Origin: Chitinispirillaceae bacterium
GTDB taxonomy: Bacteria > Fibrobacterota > Chitinivibrionia > Chitinivibrionales > Chitinispirillaceae
Length of the DNA: 17,615 bases
Assembly: GCA_016932075.1 (NCBI GenBank)
Contig: JAFGDP010000111.1
Coordinates: forward strand, 1 to 17,615
Direction of reading: 5' to 3'
The first letter of the stretch is position 1; each line of letters starts with the position of its first letter. Position numbers and translations under genes: made by a program. The notes under the pieces are model-generated. The model was not told the origin of the DNA and did not search any database. It saw only the letters and a list, made by a program, of their open reading frames with translations. Below, piece by piece: positions 569 to 16,795 of this stretch.

Positions 569-2197
569 TCATTCTCGAGGCACTGTAAAACGGACCAAAC
601 GATCATCCTTCTTTTGATTCATATAGCTCAGCCTGACCCAGTCGGCGCTTCGCGAGCGGTTGGAAACAATCGCTTCATCGATCACGCCGTTCCAATACCC
701 GTAATTGCTCTCAGCCCGTTTGCCGATCTGGACATCGAACGTCGAGTCGCGGAGGCTCGCGCTCGACGTCGTATCGATGGTGCTGTCGGCGCATACGCCG
801 TCCACATACAAGCGCATCTTGGCACCAGAACGGACGCCGGTGAGATACTTCCATTCACCCGATTGCGCCGGCGCGAAATTCGATTCCCAGCACACCGCGC
901 TTTTCAGGTCATAGATCTCCCACAGGTTATAGCCACTGAGGTCGAGGTTGTAATTCCGGTTGCTTTTTGAAATGATGTAATGCGCCGCGCTGTCGATCGC
1001 CGAGGCTAAGACCCATGCCGAAAGGGTATACGTGCCGTTTTCCGGAAAGCTCAGTCTGCTCTGCGCGGTTCCAATCAGGTGTATATAGCTCGATTTCCCA
1101 TCGAAGGCTTTCGCATTGCCGATCATGCCGTCAACGGCCGAAGCGGCGCTCATGCCGTGGTGCGTTCCATTGTACTGGTTTCCCGTGGCATCGAACGCCG
1201 TGGTGTTTCCGGTTTCATTCAAATGCCATACGCCCTGAAATCCGCTTCCCGTATCGAACACTGCCGCGCCGTTTGAATTGTCCGGCGCTCCCGGATTGCC
1301 CCAATACATCATGATTGACTGTGTGCTGTCATTCCCGCGGATGGTGTCGACCTTTACCCATACCTCGGCATGCTCGGCGGCCGGATCCCAGCGTTCGATT
1401 TCATAATTGAGGAATCCGGTGTCCTGTTTTGCAAATCGTATATCCGCACCGGCGGAGAGCGCCTGTGAAAAATCGAAATTGCCGGTATTGAGCCTGATGA
1501 GCACCGGAAAGTTCACCACGGTCCCGGCCACGTTTGCCCCGGTCGCCGATGTGTTTAGAATGAGGGGACACGCGTATTTCCACGATGGATTCCTGACAAC
1601 GGCCGTATCGCCAGATTTTACCTGAACGTTATACCTGATCGTGGTCACGGCTTCCTCGTTTGTCGACGAATAAGCAATTTCCGGGATACGACCTGCCGGC
1701 GCCGGACCCAGCGTCACGAAATCGGTGCGGCTTTCGAGAAAAGCAAAGACCGTTGTTCCGGGAACATAGACGTATCCCGCAGCGCTGTTTATGCCCGAGG
1801 GGAGGAATGCGGTTATCGCTCCCGGCGCCTGTAACGTGCAGGATGTCGTGACCACGGTATCGGTCGCGACATGGATGCCGCTGATGAGCGCGCTGTTTCC
1901 GCTCTTGAGATGCACCGCCTGCGCGGTGTATTTGCCGGAGCCGGTATTATGGAAAGCAAATCTGCCCAGGGAATCGGTTGTATCAACAGGAATTTCGGTA
2001 TTGTCCTTTACGGGATCATAGGCGTCGGGATGAAGCCGCACTTGGACATCCGCCTCAGGAACACCCTGGTCATTGACAACCGACCCGACAATGCCCGTGG
2101 TCGTTTCGGTGCCGGAACCTCCGGGATCGAGGGGTGCGCATGCCGCGGCAAGGAGCAGCGGCAGAAGGAAACGTATTGTGGTGCTCCTACGGTTCAT
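569..2197 (-). CDS. DUF2341/LamG-domain lipoprotein with carboxypeptidase-regulatory-like N-domain
   Basis: From the ATG at 2197 the product is 542 aa. It has a lipoprotein signal (hydrophobic run, then LAAAC with Cys20 as the likely lipidated residue). A carboxypeptidase-regulatory-like beta domain follows (about 32-115, 'TGIVGSVVNDQGVPEADV'). Next is a DUF2341 domain (about 200-330, with 'FPVLIRL', 'IRFAKQD' and 'MMYWGNP'), then a LamG/concanavalin-A-like domain (about 335-530, with 'GVWHLNE', 'YTLSAWV', 'LYVDG' and 'GVIDEAIVSNR'). DUF2341-LamG pairs are typical of surface proteins that bind glycans. An in-frame ATG at 2215 is possible, but 2197 has the better-placed GGAAAA sequence. The 2197 start overlaps the end of the TIGR02147 gene by 11 bp, suggesting translational coupling. 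No enzymatic residues are recognised. A role as glycan binder or sensor lipoprotein is an inference. Confidence 0.82.
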   Translation of the reverse strand: MNRRSTTIRFLLPLLLAAACAPLDPGGSGTETTTGIVGSVVNDQGVPEADVQVRLHPDAYDPVKDNTEIPVDTTDSLGRFAFHNTGSGKYTAQAVHLKSGNSALISGIHVATDTVVTTSCTLQAPGAITAFLPSGINSAAGYVYVPGTTVFAFLESRTDFVTLGPAPAGRIPEIAYSSTNEEAVTTIRYNVQVKSGDTAVVRNPSWKYACPLILNTSATGANVAGTVVNFPVLIRLNTGNFDFSQALSAGADIRFAKQDTGFLNYEIERWDPAAEHAEVWVKVDTIRGNDSTQSIMMYWGNPGAPDNSNGAAVFDTGSGFQGVWHLNETGNTTAFDATGNQYNGTHHGMSAASAVDGMIGNAKAFDGKSSYIHLIGTAQSRLSFPENGTYTLSAWVLASAIDSAAHYIISKSNRNYNLDLSGYNLWEIYDLKSAVCWESNFAPAQSGEWKYLTGVRSGAKMRLYVDGVCADSTIDTTSSASLRDSTFDVQIGKRAESNYGYWNGVIDEAIVSNRSRSADWVRLSYMNQKKDDRLVRFTVPRE

Positions 2198-3366: not shown

Positions 3367-5625
3367 ATGCAAAAAAGCCTTTTTTTTCTCTATACGCCGC
3401 TAGTGCTGGCGTTTTTAGCGACCGAAGGACGGTGTTCAGGTACCTCGATTATGCCTTCCGCATTCGCCGGAGATACGGTGGCTTCATCACAACATCCCCT
3501 TGCCGCCCAGATCAATGGTTTTATCAAAGATCAGGCCTCTTCCACCGGACCATTTTCGCCGACCGGTTTGACGCGCACCGATTATCTCCGCAGTATCGAG
3601 AAAATTGCGCGCGCGATGCTGAAGTATCAGAATTCGAACGGCCAGATCATCGATCCGGTCATAGGGCGGGAGCACCAATATGCCACGCCCTGTTTCGCCC
3701 ATGCGGTTGCGGTGCTGTGCGGAAGCGGCTTTATAAACGATGCGACACTGCTTCAGGCCGGGATAAAGGCCATGGACGCCTCCATTGGTCACATGCTCAG
3801 GGATGACGTACCGGATTCGCACGGCGATTTTTTCACGGTACCGATGATGCTCGCGTTCTGGAACTTTAAAAACGTGGTCGCGGCATCCAAGATTTCCTCC
3901 TGGCGCACCGATCTCGGGAGAATCAATCCTTCGGCCGTCTATATCAATGCGGCGCCAAACTGGATCGGCATCAACATGACCGGCGAGTTCCTGCGCTCTG
4001 TGGAGGGATTGACCTCGATATCGTATACGACAAGCCGGATTCTCTATCAAATCACACGGATGGGAAAAGAAGGATTGTATCAGGACAGCGACCGGCCCGA
4101 AACGACCTCGGTTTCCAACAGTACCGACGGTAATTCAATCGCTTACGATAACGTAGCGCGCTGCATGCTCAATATCGTCGCGATAAACGGATACGAGGGG
4201 ACCCATTACCAGGAACTCCGCCTACGTCTCTGCAGGGGCGCATGGACCGGGCTTTTGTATCAGTCCCCCTTCGGTGAGGTACCTACGGGCATGCGCAGCT
4301 CGCACCATTTCTGGAATGAGGCATATGCCGCCGTCAATTACGAGATCTGGGCCGCGCAATACGCCAGGGCGGGAAAGCCGGAGATCGCCGGCGCATTCAA
4401 ACGCGCGGCCATGCTGTCGCTTTCATGCGTACAATCGTGGCACAGGTCCGACGGGTCCGGTTACGTGACCAAGGCGCGATACCCCATCGAGTCAAAATGG
4501 GGTTACATGAAGTACTCGGGTCACACCCAATACAATCTCTGGACCGCATCGGCCATGGCAATGGCATGGCAGTACGGTGACAGTACCATTGAGGAGAGGC
4601 CGGCGCCGTGCGACATCGGAGGATTTGTTTGTAAAGTCCTTCCGGGATTTAAAAAGGTGTTCGCCAACGCGGGCGGCACCTATGTCGAGTACGATGTACG
4701 GGGCGACCATGCGCATAACCCCACCGGGCTGCTCAGGCTCCACCTCAAAACCGGCTATCCCCAGCTGGGGCCTTCGGACGGCGCCGTGGGCCAGGTGATT
4801 TCCGGGGCGCAATACTGGCCGCTGTATCCGCAGTCCGATCCGCCGGGCCAGCAGAACCTCAGCGTCGGCCCGGCGTGGATGCAATCGGGATCTTGGTACC
4901 CGCTTGCTGAAATGCAACAGATCCCGCAGGTGGCGATCCTCGACGAAACTCCTGAAAAATCGGTTTACAGGCTGGTCTATAGCTTGTCGGGTGGCGCCAC
5001 ACTGCACGAAACCGTCATGGTCGAACCCCGCGGCGTGACCGTCACCGATTCTCTGGCCGGAGGAAATCACTCCGCCATCAGGGCCTATTACCCCATGCTG
5101 CGCACCGACGGCGAAGAGCAGTCACAGATCACCGTGAACGGTAACCAGGTTATCGTACGACTCCGGGACAAGGGGGTCCGGTTCATGGTGCGCAGGCCGG
5201 CCAATGCACTGCTGGTAAGAACAAACGTTCTTCGCAATCACCGTAATGGCAGGTGTGAAGCGATATATGCGGAGGTCCAGGGCAGGGTGGTGGAGTCGTA
5301 TGTCTCTGCCTGGCCGGAATATGATCCGACCGGGATTGCCGGCGAGCGTGACACGCATAAACAAACGATGCCGCCGAACAGGAGGAACGTTCTTTCCGCC
5401 GGGTTCGCCCTGCCCGCGACCATGTCAGGACCGTATACGTTCGTGTATTATTCGCTGCAGGGGAGGGAGGTGGCCATAGGCAGGGGCAACGTGTCAAACG
5501 GCATGCTCAATCCTGCCCCCGTGGCAATGGCAAAGCCTTCCGGCAGCGGGCTGTACAGAGCGGTTTTTACATGTGGTAGGATCAAGGCCTGCGGAATGGT
5601 TCTTGTCACGGGGAAGAGAAGGTAA
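3367..5625 (+). CDS. Secreted (alpha/alpha)-toroid plus beta-sandwich carbohydrate-active enzyme, family uncertain (lyase- or glucuronidase-like)
   Basis: The product is 752 aa with a signal peptide (FFLYTPLVLAFLA, about 25 residues). The start is fixed by AAGGAG 10 bp upstream of the ATG. Residues about 50-400 are helical with repeated aromatic/His-rich segments: 'DSHGDFFTVPMM' (~150), 'NWIGINMTGEF' (~198), 'NSIAYDNVARC' (~255), 'SSHHFWNEAYAAVNYE' (~311) and 'YSGHTQYNLWTA' (~382). After this, to about 690, it is beta-rich. An (alpha/alpha) barrel followed by a beta-sandwich is the architecture of heparinase-II/III-type lyases and of some glycosidases (for example GH154-type), and conserved His/Tyr/Asn residues fit either. 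I do not recognise a specific family. The last ~65 residues ('YTFVYYSLQGREVA', 'GSGLYRAVFTCG') match the sorting-like tails of its neighbours. It is followed 142 bp later by the GH51 gene in the same direction. Confidence 0.6.
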   Translation: MQKSLFFLYTPLVLAFLATEGRCSGTSIMPSAFAGDTVASSQHPLAAQINGFIKDQASSTGPFSPTGLTRTDYLRSIEKIARAMLKYQNSNGQIIDPVIGREHQYATPCFAHAVAVLCGSGFINDATLLQAGIKAMDASIGHMLRDDVPDSHGDFFTVPMMLAFWNFKNVVAASKISSWRTDLGRINPSAVYINAAPNWIGINMTGEFLRSVEGLTSISYTTSRILYQITRMGKEGLYQDSDRPETTSVSNSTDGNSIAYDNVARCMLNIVAINGYEGTHYQELRLRLCRGAWTGLLYQSPFGEVPTGMRSSHHFWNEAYAAVNYEIWAAQYARAGKPEIAGAFKRAAMLSLSCVQSWHRSDGSGYVTKARYPIESKWGYMKYSGHTQYNLWTASAMAMAWQYGDSTIEERPAPCDIGGFVCKVLPGFKKVFANAGGTYVEYDVRGDHAHNPTGLLRLHLKTGYPQLGPSDGAVGQVISGAQYWPLYPQSDPPGQQNLSVGPAWMQSGSWYPLAEMQQIPQVAILDETPEKSVYRLVYSLSGGATLHETVMVEPRGVTVTDSLAGGNHSAIRAYYPMLRTDGEEQSQITVNGNQVIVRLRDKGVRFMVRRPANALLVRTNVLRNHRNGRCEAIYAEVQGRVVESYVSAWPEYDPTGIAGERDTHKQTMPPNRRNVLSAGFALPATMSGPYTFVYYSLQGREVAIGRGNVSNGMLNPAPVAMAKPSGSGLYRAVFTCGRIKACGMVLVTGKRR

Positions 5626-5773: not shown

Positions 5774-7534
5774 ATGTGTGCGAAAAAGATCATGAAGCGA
5801 AGTTTGACGGCCGTTTTAGGTTGCCTGGCGGCGAGCATATCCGCCCAGACCACCATGAGCTTGGACCTAGGCCAGGCAACATATACGATCAGCAGAGATA
5901 TATACGGAGGATTGTTGGAAAACTTGAAACGCGATATTTATAACGGTCTCTATGTCGGAACCGCTTCAAGCGTACCGAATATAAACGGCATGAGAAAGGA
6001 TGTCATAGCGGCTTTCAAGGAATGCGGCGTTTCCGTTTTGGACTGGCCGGGCGGTTGTTTCGCTGAAACCTATAACTGGTCGGACGGTATAGGGCCAAAA
6101 TCGGGCCGCCCGGGAGGCGACATGAAAAATGGAATGGGCACGCATGAATATTTTCAGCTCTGCGATTCGCTGAACGCGCCGCCATATATCACGGCTAATA
6201 TCACCTCCCTGCCGGCAGCGATAATGACCGATTGGCTAAATTATATCGATTCGGTATTCCCCAACAAACTCAAATACTGGAAAATAGGGAACGAACCTTG
6301 GGGCGGGTGCGGTTCCGCAATATCCATTAGTGCGTACATTTCCAAATACCGACAATACAAAGCGGCTATTCCATCCAAGCTGCTGGGCAAGATTACGAGA
6401 GTCGCGGATGGCGGTACCGCCGATTATCTGTATAAGGTTACTTGGATTGATTCTTTACTGAAATGCGAGATGGGAAGCTTTGATGCGGTAACATTGCATT
6501 ATTACGGGGCATTCAGCGGTTCATCCATCGGTTTCTCCGTAGATTCTTTTTATACGAGGATTCAGATCGCATTGCGCCTTGGTAATACCTTGGCAATATA
6601 CGACTCAATTATGGCCCGGTACGATCCGAATTATACCGTCGGTTTATGGGTTGACGAATGGGGCGCCTGGTATTCAAGCCTTCCGGGCAAAGATTATCCC
6701 CAAAGCACCTGTCGGGACGCAGTGATCGCCTCTATAAATTTGAATATGTTTAACAATCGCTGCCGGCGCATACAAATGGCTTGTGTCGCGCAGCCGGTAA
6801 ACGTCATACAGTCGCTGATCCTCACCGAGAACCCCGCGCAGAACAGGATAGTGAAGACGCCGACTTTTTATGTGTATAAAATGTATAAAGTGCATCAGCA
6901 GGCTACGATGGTGCCGGTGACGCTCTCCACGCCCAACAACCAGAATATCCCGGTAATCAGCACGTCTTCCTCCGTGGATAGCGCGGGAAAACTTCACATC
7001 AGTTTGTGTAACACGCATGCGACGGCCGCGCACACCGTTACAATAACGCTCAATAACGCTCCCGTATATGCTTCCTGTACCGGAACGATCGTTAATGGTA
7101 CGTCACACAACAGCTATAACGATTTCGGCCAATCCGAGAACGTGAATATCCGGAATTTTTCGGGCGCAACGTATGAAAGGAATACCGTGACCGCGATTAT
7201 CCCTGCTCATAGCGTGGTGACGCTCGAGTTGGCACTCCCGGTTGATGTATCTCAAACGTCAATATCAATGCCGGTTTTTTTCCAAGAAATGGACGTGACG
7301 CCGACGGGTAAAATCAAAGTTCACTATGCAGTTGCTGAAAAGCTGCCTTTTAGCCTCGGTTTGTATACGGTCGACGGCCGTATGGCTGCCGAGACATTCA
7401 AAGGCACGCTTGAGCTTGGTCGAAATAGTATTTGTTGGCAGCCCGTTATTTTAGAGAAAGCGGCAAGGGTTTACATAGCAAAATTTACCGTCAATGGAAA
7501 CGTGAAGTCACGACGTGTTTTCTTGCGGCAATAA
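5774..7534 (+). CDS. Secreted GH51 alpha-L-arabinofuranosidase
   Basis: From the ATG at 5774 the product is 586 aa. An ATG two codons earlier (5768) is also open, but the GAGAGG sequence lies only 4 bp from it against 10 bp from 5774. A signal peptide (SLTAVLGCLAASISAQ) precedes the mature enzyme. GH51 landmarks are clear: 'YGGLLENLKRDIYNGLYVG' at the mature start, 'LDWPGGCFAETYNW' (~90), the acid/base Glu in 'IGNEPWG' (E174) and the nucleophile Glu in 'LWVDEWGAWY' (E295). The family removes alpha-L-arabinofuranosyl side chains from arabinoxylan or arabinan. A beta-sandwich C-domain follows, then a sorting-like tail ('LPFSLGLYTVDGRMA', 'ARVYIAKFTVNG', 'RRVFLRQ'). By eye the gene is more AT-rich than its neighbours. 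Its stop codon lies only 60 bp from the recognisable end of a GH43 relic on the other strand, so an old recombination joint may lie just downstream. Confidence 0.93.
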   Translation: MCAKKIMKRSLTAVLGCLAASISAQTTMSLDLGQATYTISRDIYGGLLENLKRDIYNGLYVGTASSVPNINGMRKDVIAAFKECGVSVLDWPGGCFAETYNWSDGIGPKSGRPGGDMKNGMGTHEYFQLCDSLNAPPYITANITSLPAAIMTDWLNYIDSVFPNKLKYWKIGNEPWGGCGSAISISAYISKYRQYKAAIPSKLLGKITRVADGGTADYLYKVTWIDSLLKCEMGSFDAVTLHYYGAFSGSSIGFSVDSFYTRIQIALRLGNTLAIYDSIMARYDPNYTVGLWVDEWGAWYSSLPGKDYPQSTCRDAVIASINLNMFNNRCRRIQMACVAQPVNVIQSLILTENPAQNRIVKTPTFYVYKMYKVHQQATMVPVTLSTPNNQNIPVISTSSSVDSAGKLHISLCNTHATAAHTVTITLNNAPVYASCTGTIVNGTSHNSYNDFGQSENVNIRNFSGATYERNTVTAIIPAHSVVTLELALPVDVSQTSISMPVFFQEMDVTPTGKIKVHYAVAEKLPFSLGLYTVDGRMAAETFKGTLELGRNSICWQPVILEKAARVYIAKFTVNGNVKSRRVFLRQ

Positions 7535-9632: not shown

Positions 9633-11534
9633 TCAATGGACAAATCGCTCTACACTCCTGGTGCGGCCGTTTACGGAAAAAGAGACAACATGCAGGCCTT
9701 TTGAACAGTGCCTGACCGCTTCACCCACCTCCACGCTGTTCATCCCTTCGCGCGCCATGCAGGAAACAATTGTCACGGTCCTGCCGAGGATTGTGTGAAG
9801 CGTAATCGTTACCTTCGATGCCGACGGAGCAACAAAACAGAGCGTACCGGTCGAGAAAAACTTTTCCTGGTTGACCATACGGAATACGTCTCCGGGTTTG
9901 TCTGAACGCCGCCGGTTGCCGGTTCCCGGAGAGACGCTGACCTGTGCCGGATCGCCGTAACGAAACCAGTCGAAGTCAGCCGTTTTTGACGCGGCGCCGC
10001 TGCTGTGCACCGCAAAAAACCCGATCGTTCCGGCCGACCACTCGTGGCATTTCCAGCCGATGTACGGCGACCCGTTTTTGCCGAAGTTGATCGCAGAGCC
10101 CAGCGCGGTCCAGTCGGTGTCGTTTGGGCCGTAGAAAAATGTCGCGTTCTCGTTTCCGTCCACTGATAGTTTCAGAAACACCGTGGTGCCGATCGTGTTG
10201 GGCGCAGTGGCCACCGGGGTCGTCGAAACGCCGTTTTTCGTCACGGTAAAGCATGTGACGCCACCGCGCACGGTGGTGGCGAGTTCGATGTGCGCCATGG
10301 GGTCTTTATACAGGAGTATGCCGGCCGCCTCGCCCGCCGACGTCGCGTCAAACTCCACCTTTGCGCTGGCTTCAAACCGCTTGAGGTCAATACGCTGCAG
10401 GAAAACATTGGTCAGGGAGCTGGTCTCTCCCACGTCGCCGCCCTTTGTCTTGATGCGCATGAATCCCGGCCGGTCGCGCAAGGACCACGAGGCGCCGCTG
10501 GTGTCGGGACGCGTATGAAAGAACCACTGGTTTCCAAGCGTGGTTCCGCTGAATTCGTCGGAGCGGGTCGTCTGGACCGTGGATACGGGAAGGTCCGGCG
10601 CGGCCTGCGGGCGAGTCCAGGGGATCCTGCCGTTTTTCGGCCGGAACCAGTTGTCCGTTGTCCATTCAATGGGCTCCATGCACATGAAGCGGCCGAGACT
10701 TACATGGTTCTGGTCAAACGCATGAAAGGTCATGAACCACTTATCGTCAGGCATCTGGAGCAGTTCGCCGTGCGCCGGCCCCTGGATCTCGGCGTTCGAC
10801 GAGCTGGGCGCGCTCATGAGCGGATTGTTCGGGTTCGCGGTCCAGGGTCCGGCAATCTGCTGCGCCCGCAGACAGGAGATGGCGCTGTACTCGTCCATGC
10901 AGGTCCCTCCCGGGGAATAGAGCACGTAGTAATACCCGTTTCGCTTGACGATTTCCGGCCCCTCGAAAAGTCCGCCCGGGTTGAGCCCGCCTGCCACCGG
11001 GCTCGTGCCTTGTATCGAAAGTCCGCTCTGTTCCAGCTCCCAGATTTCGCCGCTCGCAACGATAAGGTACAGCCGGCCGTCGTCATCCGCAAAGAAACCC
11101 GGATCAATAGCCTCAATCCCGATGTCCGACGGACCCGCGTACGGGCCTTCAGGCTTGTCCGATGCGTATGCGACGATCCTGTTGTTGATCGGCGTGTAGC
11201 ATAAAAAAGCCTTGCTGTGGGGATTATACCCTATTTCCGAGCCCCAGGCGCCGCCCGACGTGGTGCCGGTGGCGATGTTGCTGTTCGACAGGTAGGCGTA
11301 GCCGATGTAATCCCAGTGCAGGAGGTCGCTCGATCGCATGATGGGAAGGCCCGGCTGCCAGCCAAAGGACGAGCTGAGTGAATAGTAATATTTGTCAACC
11401 ATTACTATCGCGGGATCGCTCTAGTTGCCGTTTATAACCGGATTGGTGTAGTAGGCGCCGGAAATTTCGGCGGACAGAATATACAACGTAATCAGGATTG
11501 ACCGGATCGCCGGTCCGGACGGGCGCTTGCGCAT
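9633..11534 (-). pseudogene. GH43 glycosidase (beta-xylosidase/arabinofuranosidase type) interrupted by an in-frame TAG
   Basis: AAGGAGG five bp before the ATG at 11534 opens a frame with a signal peptide (IRSILITLYILSAEISGA) and then 'YYTNPVINGN'. Codon 38 is TAG (11421-11423), and the same frame continues without further stops as 'SDPAIVMVDKYYYSLSSSFG' to the TGA at 9633. Intact GH43 enzymes have Tyr/Phe/Asn-type residues before '(A/S)DP', so a one-base change of a Tyr codon (TAC/TAT) explains the stop. D40 (base), D144 ('AIDPGFF') and E191 ('FEGPEI', acid) are all present. A GH43_C2-like concanavalin domain (~320-525) and a sorting-like tail ('ITLHTILGRTVTI', 'SKGLHVVSFSVNG') follow. An internal start at 11402 would give 589 aa lacking both signal peptide and D40. 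It lies 40 bp downstream of the other GH43 gene and is probably co-transcribed with it. Confidence 0.85.
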
Positions 11535-11574
11535 GGGTTCCTCCTTGCCTGGTCACACTTCAGTCATGCATCAA

Positions 11575-13434
11575 TCAACGGCGTACGATGATTGCTTTCG
11601 TTTTGTTCTGCACTCCTGCGCGTATACAACAGAAATAAACGCCCCTTGATAACGGTAACGTAGGTAATCCTATCCGGTGTTTCCCTGCTGCTTTTTCCCC
11701 GTTCGCCAGCGTTGCCACGATCCTCCCGCGAACATCAAAAACGTTTACCGTTACCCGCGATTTTGTCGCAAGTTCAAAACTGATGATAGTCTCAGTAATG
11801 CACGGAGCGGCGCACGCAGCGCCGGGAACCGGCCGTTTGCTGACTTCAGCATCGCCTTCTCCACCCATGTCGAACCAGTCGAAATCAGCGGGATTGACAT
11901 TTTTTGTTCCATTCCCTGATGCGTACATGCCAATGAAAACCCCGGTAAAGCCCTGGATGACTTCCGTGGACAGGTCTCTGGTTAAAGCTGAACCTATCTG
12001 CTCGGCTGTTTTGCCCTGCTCCTGTATTAAAAACTGGTACTGAAGCTCGGTTGCGCTGATCCGCAGGATGATATCGCCGTCTGAAATCTCCTTATACGTG
12101 GTTTCAACCGCATTGTCCTGCAGATATCTCCTGAACATGACGGATCGTTTCCCTTCATGCGTGGTTATCAGGAGGTCGTAATGATTCTTATCATTCCCGC
12201 GGACCACCACCCCCGCCTCTTCATTTGAAGCGGTCGGCGTAAAACTGACTTTTGTCGCGGCAAACATGTTGAACGCCGTCTGTCTTTGGCAGATAAACGC
12301 CGGAGAGTCTTTCTGTTTGAAGTTTATTGCCGAACCATTGAGCCTCAGAAATCCGGGTCGTGCCGTGAGCGACCAGTCGGCTGCATGGGGATTGCGGACA
12401 AAATTCCAGGCCAGCCGCAAGGACGTGCTGTCAAAGTCGTCGCGCACCGGCTCCTTTTCCCACACATGCTGCGGCAGGTCCGGCACCGGGTATTCTTCCT
12501 TTACAATGCCGTCTGTTCCGACTTTCGGCCATCCGTCACTATTCCACGTGACCGGCGCCAGGAACGTTTCACGGCCCAGGTGGTGATAATTGCCCCCCTT
12601 GGGCCTGATGCCGAGGCACACCAGCCACCACCCGTCAGGCGTTTCCACCATATCGGCATGGCCTATTGCATGAAAAGGATTGTTGGGGGCATTCCGGTGT
12701 GATGCGACCGGATTTATGGGACTTGCCGTATACGGTCCCCACGGCGAACTGCTTCGCTGTATGACTTCCCGGTGATCGTACCCGGTCCCCCCTTCCGCTG
12801 ACATTAAATAGTAATTATTGTCCTTTTCATACAAATGCGGACCTTCAGGGGATGAGCCGCCGAGACCTTCCGCTATCTTCGTCAACGCCATGGAAAACTG
12901 GCCTGTTTTAGGATTTATTATCCCGAGCAAAAAACTGCCGTTATTGTCCGGACTATGGTAATACATGTTATCGTTTATGAACAAAATAGAAGGGTCCACA
13001 TACCATTGCCCCACCCAGTACGGTTCAGACCAGGGACCTGCGGGATTCGTGGCAGTTACATAAAACATTCCTTGGGAACCTTGCCCGCCATAGTTGGTGC
13101 CGGTGACATAAAAGGTGCCGTTGTTGTAACGGATGGTCGCCGCGTACTGGCCTCCGGTGCTCGATTCGCAGCCCATCAGAGGATTATTGCTTGGCCGTGA
13201 CAGAGCATGGCCGATCAGTTTCCAGTGCACCAGGTCCTTGCTCTGATAAATGGGCAGGCCGGGAAAATACTCGAACGTCGAGGTCACGATATAGTAGTCG
13301 TCACCGGCGCGGCAGATGCTCGGGTCGGGGTTCATGCCGGAAATGATCGGGTTTTTAAAGGTCATCTGGCCGTGGGCAAGATTCACAAAGAGTGTTATGC
13401 TGATAATAGTTAATGCGGTTACTTTGATTTTCAT
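11575..13434 (-). CDS. Secreted GH43 beta-xylosidase/alpha-L-arabinofuranosidase with GH43_C2 domain
   Basis: From the ATG at 13434 (AGGAG upstream) the product is 619 aa. A TTG eight codons earlier is open but lacks an RBS. The signal peptide ends near 'NLAHGQ'. The five-bladed GH43 domain (~25-330) opens with 'NPIISGMNPDPSICRAGDDYY' and 'TSTFEYFPGLPIY', typical of the XynB-like xylosidase subgroup. The catalytic residues are D37 (base), D147 in 'YVDPSILF' (pKa modulator) and E197 in 'SPEGPHLY' (acid). A beta-xylosidase C-terminal concanavalin-like domain covers ~335-535 ('LRLAWNFVRNP', 'RPGFLRLNG', 'EEAGVVVRG'). A linker and sorting-like tail close it ('SRVTVNVFDVRGRIVATL', 'SRGVYFCCIRAG', 'AIIVRR'). 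It would release xylose or arabinose from (arabino)xylan oligosaccharides outside the cytoplasm. It is complete, unlike its downstream neighbour of the same family. Confidence 0.93.
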   Translation of the reverse strand: MKIKVTALTIISITLFVNLAHGQMTFKNPIISGMNPDPSICRAGDDYYIVTSTFEYFPGLPIYQSKDLVHWKLIGHALSRPSNNPLMGCESSTGGQYAATIRYNNGTFYVTGTNYGGQGSQGMFYVTATNPAGPWSEPYWVGQWYVDPSILFINDNMYYHSPDNNGSFLLGIINPKTGQFSMALTKIAEGLGGSSPEGPHLYEKDNNYYLMSAEGGTGYDHREVIQRSSSPWGPYTASPINPVASHRNAPNNPFHAIGHADMVETPDGWWLVCLGIRPKGGNYHHLGRETFLAPVTWNSDGWPKVGTDGIVKEEYPVPDLPQHVWEKEPVRDDFDSTSLRLAWNFVRNPHAADWSLTARPGFLRLNGSAINFKQKDSPAFICQRQTAFNMFAATKVSFTPTASNEEAGVVVRGNDKNHYDLLITTHEGKRSVMFRRYLQDNAVETTYKEISDGDIILRISATELQYQFLIQEQGKTAEQIGSALTRDLSTEVIQGFTGVFIGMYASGNGTKNVNPADFDWFDMGGEGDAEVSKRPVPGAACAAPCITETIISFELATKSRVTVNVFDVRGRIVATLANGEKAAGKHRIGLPTLPLSRGVYFCCIRAGVQNKTKAIIVRR

Positions 13435-13588
13435 AATGCAGGTTTCTCCTGAGATCAATTGTCTTTTAGATAATTAGTGTTAAAAAATTGACTAAAAAGC
13501 TCATCTATCCCAGAATAGGACTGGATGAAATATGTTTGAGCGTCCACTAATAATAAAGATTTTGGTGGGGGCACCGCCTTTCAATTTT

Positions 13589-15367: not shown

Positions 15368-16795
15368 CTACGGAAGTGTAAACCGCAGGAAGAATTCCCA
15401 GATCATCGGACTCATTTTAAAGTCGCCGGGATTGTCGCCGGTTCCTAAACAATTCAGGTCCTCAGGCCAGCAATGACCCATGCCCGTGACCGTGCAGAAC
15501 ACCACTTCGACGCCGTCGTCGCAACCCTTGTACGTTACGCACCTGGTCGACCCGACGTTATATGTCTCGATGGGCGTGCTGTTGCAGCCGTTGCGTCTTA
15601 CCCAGCCGTCGACATTTGGCTGGGCGCTCGAGTAGGGGATTGTTCGATCCATGGTACCATGTACATAGAAGTAGGAGATCGGGCGCGCCGGCGAGCAGCT
15701 TCCGCTGACTCCCCCGGAAACACCGCCCACGGCCGCGAAAAGGTCGGCTGCCTTGCACCCCAAAAACGCGGTCATCATGGAACCGTTCGAGATCCCCGCG
15801 GCATACACGCGCTTTGGGTTGATGCATGCGTGTTTCTGGATAGTGTCGACGACAGCTCTAAGAAATCCTACATCATCGTCCGCAGCAGGGCAGCCGCCGA
15901 TCGTAAACCCGCAGTTCCAACAATCGACAGCCTGTGGGTAGACAACGATGAACCCTTTCGCGTCGGATACCGGATTCATTTGCGACCAGCTTTTAACCAT
16001 CGCGATCGTGTTGTGGGCGCCGTGGATCACCATCATGAGCGGCACGGCCGTATCTCCCGTGTAACCCTTGGGAATGTGCACCTCGAACTTCCGCGAGTCT
16101 TTGCCGTACGTAAAAGTGATGGTGCGATCTCCGGCAGTCCATCCCCCGCCCCCACATCCTCCCCCTGAACTCAATATGATATCGCCCACATCCCCGACAT
16201 ATTTATTAATGGCAAGGAGAGAATCACGATACCCGGCCGCGGAAACGGATAATTGATCCATACCCGCCTTTGCTTTTGCCAGAGATTCTTTTTTAACCCT
16301 CTTGTCTAATTCGCAGATGACCATCCGCTCTCGTTCAAAATAAAATTTTCCCAAAACGGCCCGGTCTCCGATGTTCACTTTCAAAATATAGAGGCCGCCG
16401 GCCAGACCTTTCATTCTCCCGGAAAGAGCAATGGCGTTGTCGCCTTTTTGGAACGTTTCGGTAAAGAAGGTGGTTACTTTTCTCCCGTTGTAATCATACA
16501 TCGCTATCTCGCCGATTTCGGATCCGTTCCTTTGGATATAGATGACCCCGTTCCGTATAACGATATACTCGGAGAGCCTGGGGGAAACAGCATTTATGGC
16601 AACGGTTGAACGCAAGGTAAACAGGCCCTCGGCGTTTGTCGAAGTTGATTTTCCGGCATTTTTCAGCGACACGTTCGCGTTTTGAATGGGAGCGGAGTTT
16701 TTATTAATGACCCTTCCCGTAAGGTTTATCTCCTGCGCCGGCGATAGTACATATAACGCCAGCAATGAAATAGTGATTACATGCATTCTTTTCAT
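15368..16795 (-). CDS. Secreted PHB-depolymerase/feruloyl-esterase-like esterase (CE1-related) with nested N-terminal domain
   Basis: The product is 475 aa, with AGAGGAAACC directly before the ATG. A signal peptide (1-20) is followed by a carboxypeptidase-regulatory-like start ('INLTGRVINKNSAPIQNANV', 'STNAEGLFTL'). A sorting-tail-like segment covers ~66-165 ('IGEIAMYDYNGRKV', 'AGGLYILKVNIGD', 'GKFYFERE'). The closing strands of the first domain come only at ~181-209 ('LSVSAAGYRDSLL', 'VGDIILS'). After a Gly-rich linker, the esterase (225-475) shows 'VPLMMVIHGA', S337 in 'GISNGS', D383 in 'VHGTMDRTIPY' and H441 in 'GMGHCWP', the triad of LpqC/PHB-depolymerase-type enzymes that include feruloyl and acetylxylan esterases. 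It is rich in Cys, as expected for an exported protein. It has no C-terminal tail and ends in TAG. Confidence 0.88.
   Translation of the reverse strand: MKRMHVITISLLALYVLSPAQEINLTGRVINKNSAPIQNANVSLKNAGKSTSTNAEGLFTLRSTVAINAVSPRLSEYIVIRNGVIYIQRNGSEIGEIAMYDYNGRKVTTFFTETFQKGDNAIALSGRMKGLAGGLYILKVNIGDRAVLGKFYFERERMVICELDKRVKKESLAKAKAGMDQLSVSAAGYRDSLLAINKYVGDVGDIILSSGGGCGGGGWTAGDRTITFTYGKDSRKFEVHIPKGYTGDTAVPLMMVIHGAHNTIAMVKSWSQMNPVSDAKGFIVVYPQAVDCWNCGFTIGGCPAADDDVGFLRAVVDTIQKHACINPKRVYAAGISNGSMMTAFLGCKAADLFAAVGGVSGGVSGSCSPARPISYFYVHGTMDRTIPYSSAQPNVDGWVRRNGCNSTPIETYNVGSTRCVTYKGCDDGVEVVFCTVTGMGHCWPEDLNCLGTGDNPGDFKMSPMIWEFFLRFTLP

Follow-up and report, generated by a model that had tools for sequence, protein, structure and literature searches.

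Isolated in-frame stop codons are a known feature of bacterial genes. In the part of Belinky et al. (2021, PMC7918605) that describes them, they are widespread and mostly short-lived, with carbohydrate metabolism among the commonest functional categories affected; the genes that contain them often keep a dN/dS below 1, and a substantial part of the raw cases is expected to be artefacts. A TAG within an open frame is also a feature of natural amber suppression, as in the pyrrolysine system. The main text of a genetic-code screen (PMC8629427) makes no mention of Fibrobacter, and among the titles listed in literature searches none deals with in-frame stops in Fibrobacterota. For the enzyme family concerned here, solved structures are available for the GH43_C2-containing xylosidases/arabinofuranosidases BlXynB (6ms2), the Bacillus halodurans enzyme (1yrz) and BoGH43B (5joz).

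We analyzed a stretch of 17,615 nucleotides (hereafter the window) from a Chitinispirillaceae-like bacterium of the Fibrobacterota, in which a gene predicted to encode a secreted GH43 enzyme of the xylosidase/arabinofuranosidase type contains a single in-frame TAG. Its product is 25-28% identical to the three solved enzymes above and differs from them in having an extra C-terminal tail and in being interrupted. The features of the gene are the following:

9633..11534, minus strand: gene coding for a GH43 propeller and a GH43_C2 beta-sandwich, with a single in-frame TAG, assigned from Pfam and from the intact relatives P0003 (81%) and P0004 (80%, partial).
11421..11423, minus strand: the in-frame TAG, codon 38, a Trp position in the closer family, from the sequence and the homologue alignment.
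11415..11417, minus strand: codon of the catalytic-base Asp (D40), 3′ of the TAG, aligned with the DP-motif Asp of solved GH43 enzymes.
11540..11546, minus strand: AAGGAGG ribosome-binding site of the full-length GH43 gene, read in the sequence, with a duplex energy of -10.0 kcal/mol.
11400..11402, minus strand: first in-frame ATG past the TAG (codon 45), a weak start (-2.1 kcal/mol).

The GH43 frame runs on the minus strand from an ATG at 11534, through a signal-like N-terminus, to a TGA at 9633. The TAG is preceded by NPVINGN and followed by SDPAIV, two codons before the catalytic Asp; it is the sole stop within the frame, and the 595 codons that lie 3′ of it are open. The Glyco_hydro_43 domain spans the TAG as one continuous match (residues 29-297) and GH43_C2 follows at residues 325-526, and when the TAG is read as X the propeller scores 189 bits against a curated PF04616 cut-off of 32.2. 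Since the Pfam domains continue across the TAG, the frame is not a product of chance. Alignment with the intact P0003 revealed a single in-frame two-residue gap and zero frameshifts. The counterparts of the catalytic residues are kept, D40 in all 26 rows that have a letter at that column and D144 and E191 in all 27 (the window's own rows counted); we presume their catalytic roles, in agreement with the titles of the mutant structures 2exi, 2exj and 2exk. An earlier note on this DNA, made from its letters, had described the AAGGAGG site, the signal, the NPVINGN motif, the TAG at 11421-11423, the 595 codons after it and the intact catalytic residues, and we see all of these directly. It had also described a sorting-like tail; the tail is indeed present and is common to the interrupted gene and to P0003, but it matches no Pfam or NCBIfam sorting-domain model at E 0.001, PF18962 and TIGR04183 included.

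The residue that the TAG replaced could be read from relatives taken from the best 120 listed in a search of 5.8 billion proteins. The nearest match, P0002 (1 member, 1 contig), is the window's own shorter ORF starting from the ATG at 11402, and the next are P0003, which is full length, and P0004, from a Chitinispirillaceae MAG. For the site alignment, 72 proteins were chosen among the 120 listed, of which 71 reach the site; the exception is P0002, which starts downstream. All 71 homologues reaching the site have Trp there, so that the gene has an early stop at a position coding for an amino acid in its intact relatives, the pattern of a null allele. Trp has one codon only, which is a single substitution from TAG. 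The original Tyr implied by the earlier note is thus not what the homologue alignment indicates, and we rejected it, although Tyr does occupy the aligned position in one distant solved GH43 enzyme (5z5d). The other distant solved enzymes have His (6ms2 and 1yrz) or Asn (5joz), and therefore the site is not invariant family-wide, Trp being a feature of the closer group. A search of genome contigs using GH43 found no relative, and a second contig search with the TIGR02147 alignment as query gave 33 loci, mostly from Fibrobacterota judging by their titles.

We consider it probable that the TAG is real and arose very recently, by a nonsense substitution in a conserved Trp codon that gave a null allele, and we put the probability of this at about 0.7. 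Translation would begin at the normal start, yield a 37-residue signal-peptide stub and halt at the TAG. Ribosomes would re-initiate only weakly at 11402, giving a cytoplasmic product devoid of the catalytic base. This start lacks the signal and the catalytic Asp, as had been pointed out before, and also a good ribosome site, and a functional restart there was rejected on account of the weak site. With a stub and a weak restart that omits the catalytic base, the allele would be null. This reading takes the base to be real and supposes that no enzyme is made. Loss of the enzyme would probably be tolerated because another GH43 gene adjoins and more hemicellulase genes lie nearby, a redundancy that may account for the survival of the allele. 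The adjoining gene is the following:

11575..13434, minus strand: open neighbouring GH43 gene, upstream of the interrupted gene on the same strand, assigned from Pfam; a possible backup activity.

The two genes form a GH43+GH43_C2 tandem pair (11575-13458 and 9633-11534). The upstream copy passes the TIGR04183 sorting-domain cut-off (29 vs 23 bits), a model for which the interrupted copy gives no match. Beside the hemicellulase genes, the plus strand of the window also encodes a 752-aa protein (3367-5625) for which neither Pfam nor NCBIfam gave a match at E 0.001; judging from its N-terminus, it is possibly secreted.

A null allele presupposes that TAG terminates translation in this lineage. 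Two other genes of the window end in this codon, as the earlier note had stated and as can be read directly:

2187..2189, minus strand: TAG ending the TIGR02147 gene, aligned with the end of its closest relative.
15368..15370, minus strand: TAG ending the 475-aa esterase gene, from the sequence.

The TIGR02147 protein and its closest relative, P0123, end in the same column, and the ends of the other 15 aligned relatives lie no more than 5 columns away. When ORFs of at least 200 aa are delimited mechanically, TAG closes 2 of 10 in the window; the figures are 13 of 64 for seven named Chitinispirillaceae loci and 7 of 32 for contig G005:C213 of a relative. TAG is thus a regular terminator in the window and in relatives, which bears out the earlier view that its general reassignment is unlikely.

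The TIGR02147 gene and its homologues gave three further observations. Its end overlaps the start of a DUF2341/LamG gene by 29 bases (2187-2215); that start has no separate ribosome-binding site (0.7 kcal/mol), which suggests translational coupling of the two genes if the start is right. The DUF4423/TIGR02147 family is much expanded in some relatives, with 49, 52 and 58 matches in genomes G005, G002 and G004, and it has no match in 8 of the 24 Chitinispirillaceae genomes. On one contig (G024:C187), two DUF4423 (TIGR02147-like) genes at 6217-6936 and 12049-12768 are inverted, have equal scores and are accompanied by identical matches to the CTA-tRNA pattern described below; they likely represent a recent inverted duplication.

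If TAG were instead a sense codon in the lineage, either reassigned or read as pyrrolysine, the GH43 frame would simply be open, and stops should recur within other conserved frames. We found in-frame stops in 2 of 145 GH43 matches from 24 Chitinispirillaceae genomes and in none of 43 matches from 26 further genomes of the phylum; a search of 167 phylum genomes with the GH43 alignment, in which at most 7 candidates were scored per genome, listed 71 matches at E 1e-30; the one stop among them was already among the rows of the 24 genomes. In other families, stops were present in 1 of 81 GH10 matches, and there was no stop in the rows listed for GH5 (out of 192 matches) and DUF4423 (out of 370), which speaks against recoding. 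The stops of G010:C692 (TAA, GH43) and G018:C5 (TAG and TAA, GH10) adjoin overlapping fragments of the same domain, and we therefore read them as frameshifts and not as isolated nonsense codons. As to the machinery of suppression, none of the 167 Fibrobacterota genomes had a PylS match above the cut-off, against 1 of 14 control genomes. A CTA tRNA-like pattern, which presumes a standard T-arm, occurred at 56 places in the 24 family genomes vs 45 for a reversed control pattern, and at 35 of the 56 places in these relatives ARAGORN found no CTA tRNA, only other anticodons or none. The gene shares with the pyrrolysine system a TAG within an open frame, and differs from it in the lack of a PylS above cut-off in the 167 genomes of the phylum and in the Trp that relatives have at the site. 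General reassignment and pyrrolysine were rejected for the relatives tested, where TAG terminates and PylS was not found, and for the window itself recoding is barely credible, even with the one further isolated TAG that we found in the GH43 gene of a relative.

This second TAG lies in genome G005 (L035:1558-1560, on G005:C213), where the sequence reads PDI-stop-IV and the stop follows the catalytic Asp by two codons, with the downstream frame open; no other isolated stop occurs among the 188 GH43 matches of 50 relatives. At its position, 14 of the 15 relatives aligned, among 120 listed, have Ser and one has Ala. A 100% identical ORF that starts 3′ of the G005 stop (P0243) lies on a Logan contig 10,999 bases long, different from the contig of 49,453 bases searched here; this makes an assembly slip at the G005 stop less likely, though both contigs may derive from the same reads. 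Since the GH43 proteins of the window and of G005 are only about 30% identical, the two TAG events are independent. By post hoc arithmetic, in a gene of about 600 codons a second, independent stop would land no more than four codons from the first with a probability of about 1.5%. One could see in these ambers of the catalytic-base loop a recurrent and selected off-switch of Chitinispirillaceae GH43 enzymes, or one that turns them down by readthrough; we regard this as highly improbable, and give little weight to the proximity of the two codons, which is probably a coincidence.

We also compared the window gene with its two closest relatives for signs of decay beyond the TAG. A column was counted as conserved if the two compared relatives were identical there and at least 90% of 23 other homologues shared their residue. 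By this measure, departures occur at 2 of 136 columns for the window, 2 of 136 for P0003 and 0 of 134 for P0004; when every column on which the other two agree is counted, they number 29 of 422, 35 of 428 and 57 of 450, respectively. There is thus no excess change at conserved columns that would indicate further decay or relaxed constraint in the window GH43 gene, and the branch of an intact gene is at least as long as that of the window. The earlier remark that decay has barely begun fits this result. The same pattern would be expected of a young change, of a wrong base or of a protein that is still made, and does not separate them, and we do not claim a pseudogene in the settled sense.

The second of these possibilities is that sequencing, amplification or assembly introduced the TAG, in which case the organism would have a sense codon and a normal enzyme. 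The TAG is known from one contig only (P0002 has 1 member on 1 contig), the protein search gave no second entry of the species, and a lone substitution in a gene otherwise free of signs of decay is what an error would look like. On the other hand, a domain scan of the other nine window proteins showed no split domain. In deep short-read contigs a substituted base seldom enters the consensus, which also counts against an error if this contig is of that kind. We consider an error unlikely, though with a chance large enough to be kept in mind.

The third possibility, low-level or regulated readthrough by which the TAG would hold down the amount of a secreted enzyme that is still of use, would explain the lack of relaxed constraint at conserved sites, and it agrees with the dN/dS below 1 often kept by genes with in-frame stops, as stated in the relevant part of PMC7918605. 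The base directly 3′ of the TAG is A, and not the T that favours termination according to a figure legend of PMC11126739. According to the portion of the same paper that treats E. coli, TAG is read there as Tyr, Gln or Lys and not as Trp, and a product made by leak would therefore still lack the Trp of the close group; yet the variation among distant GH43 enzymes (Tyr, His or Asn) means that a leaked Tyr might be tolerated. Other evidence is against readthrough: close relatives have Trp, so that the TAG is not conserved, and no CTA tRNA was found at the 35 of 56 candidate places in the family genomes. Nor is there a stable structure directly 3′ of the TAG, where the fold is unremarkable (z -0.39 for 81 nt, and 0.36 for 101 nt including the TAG), and structure-stimulated readthrough was rejected for this reason. 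The lowest z among the four folded stretches was -1.72, for the stretch ending at the restart ATG, with 10 of 200 shuffles as good. Readthrough is thus without positive evidence, and we judge it distinctly improbable.

A null mutation, a strain-level polymorphism, an error and readthrough had all been listed as options in the earlier note, and as a list they stand. The recent nonsense substitution that we favour places the window among the isolated in-frame stops of bacterial genes, a known kind that it fits. As in the cases of Belinky et al. (2021), insofar as the relevant part of PMC7918605 characterizes them, a single nonsense codon of short persistence sits in a constrained gene of carbohydrate metabolism; unlike those cases, the window stop is on one contig, and the same stop was found in no second species. 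Should the base prove to be an error, the case would be a caution for annotators, with P0002 standing as a 589-aa protein entry that starts from the ATG at 11402 and lacks the catalytic base. If the TAG is real, it would provide a clean snapshot of the first step of gene loss inside a hemicellulase cluster, and would be useful for asking how long in-frame stops last and whether they are read through by bacteria.
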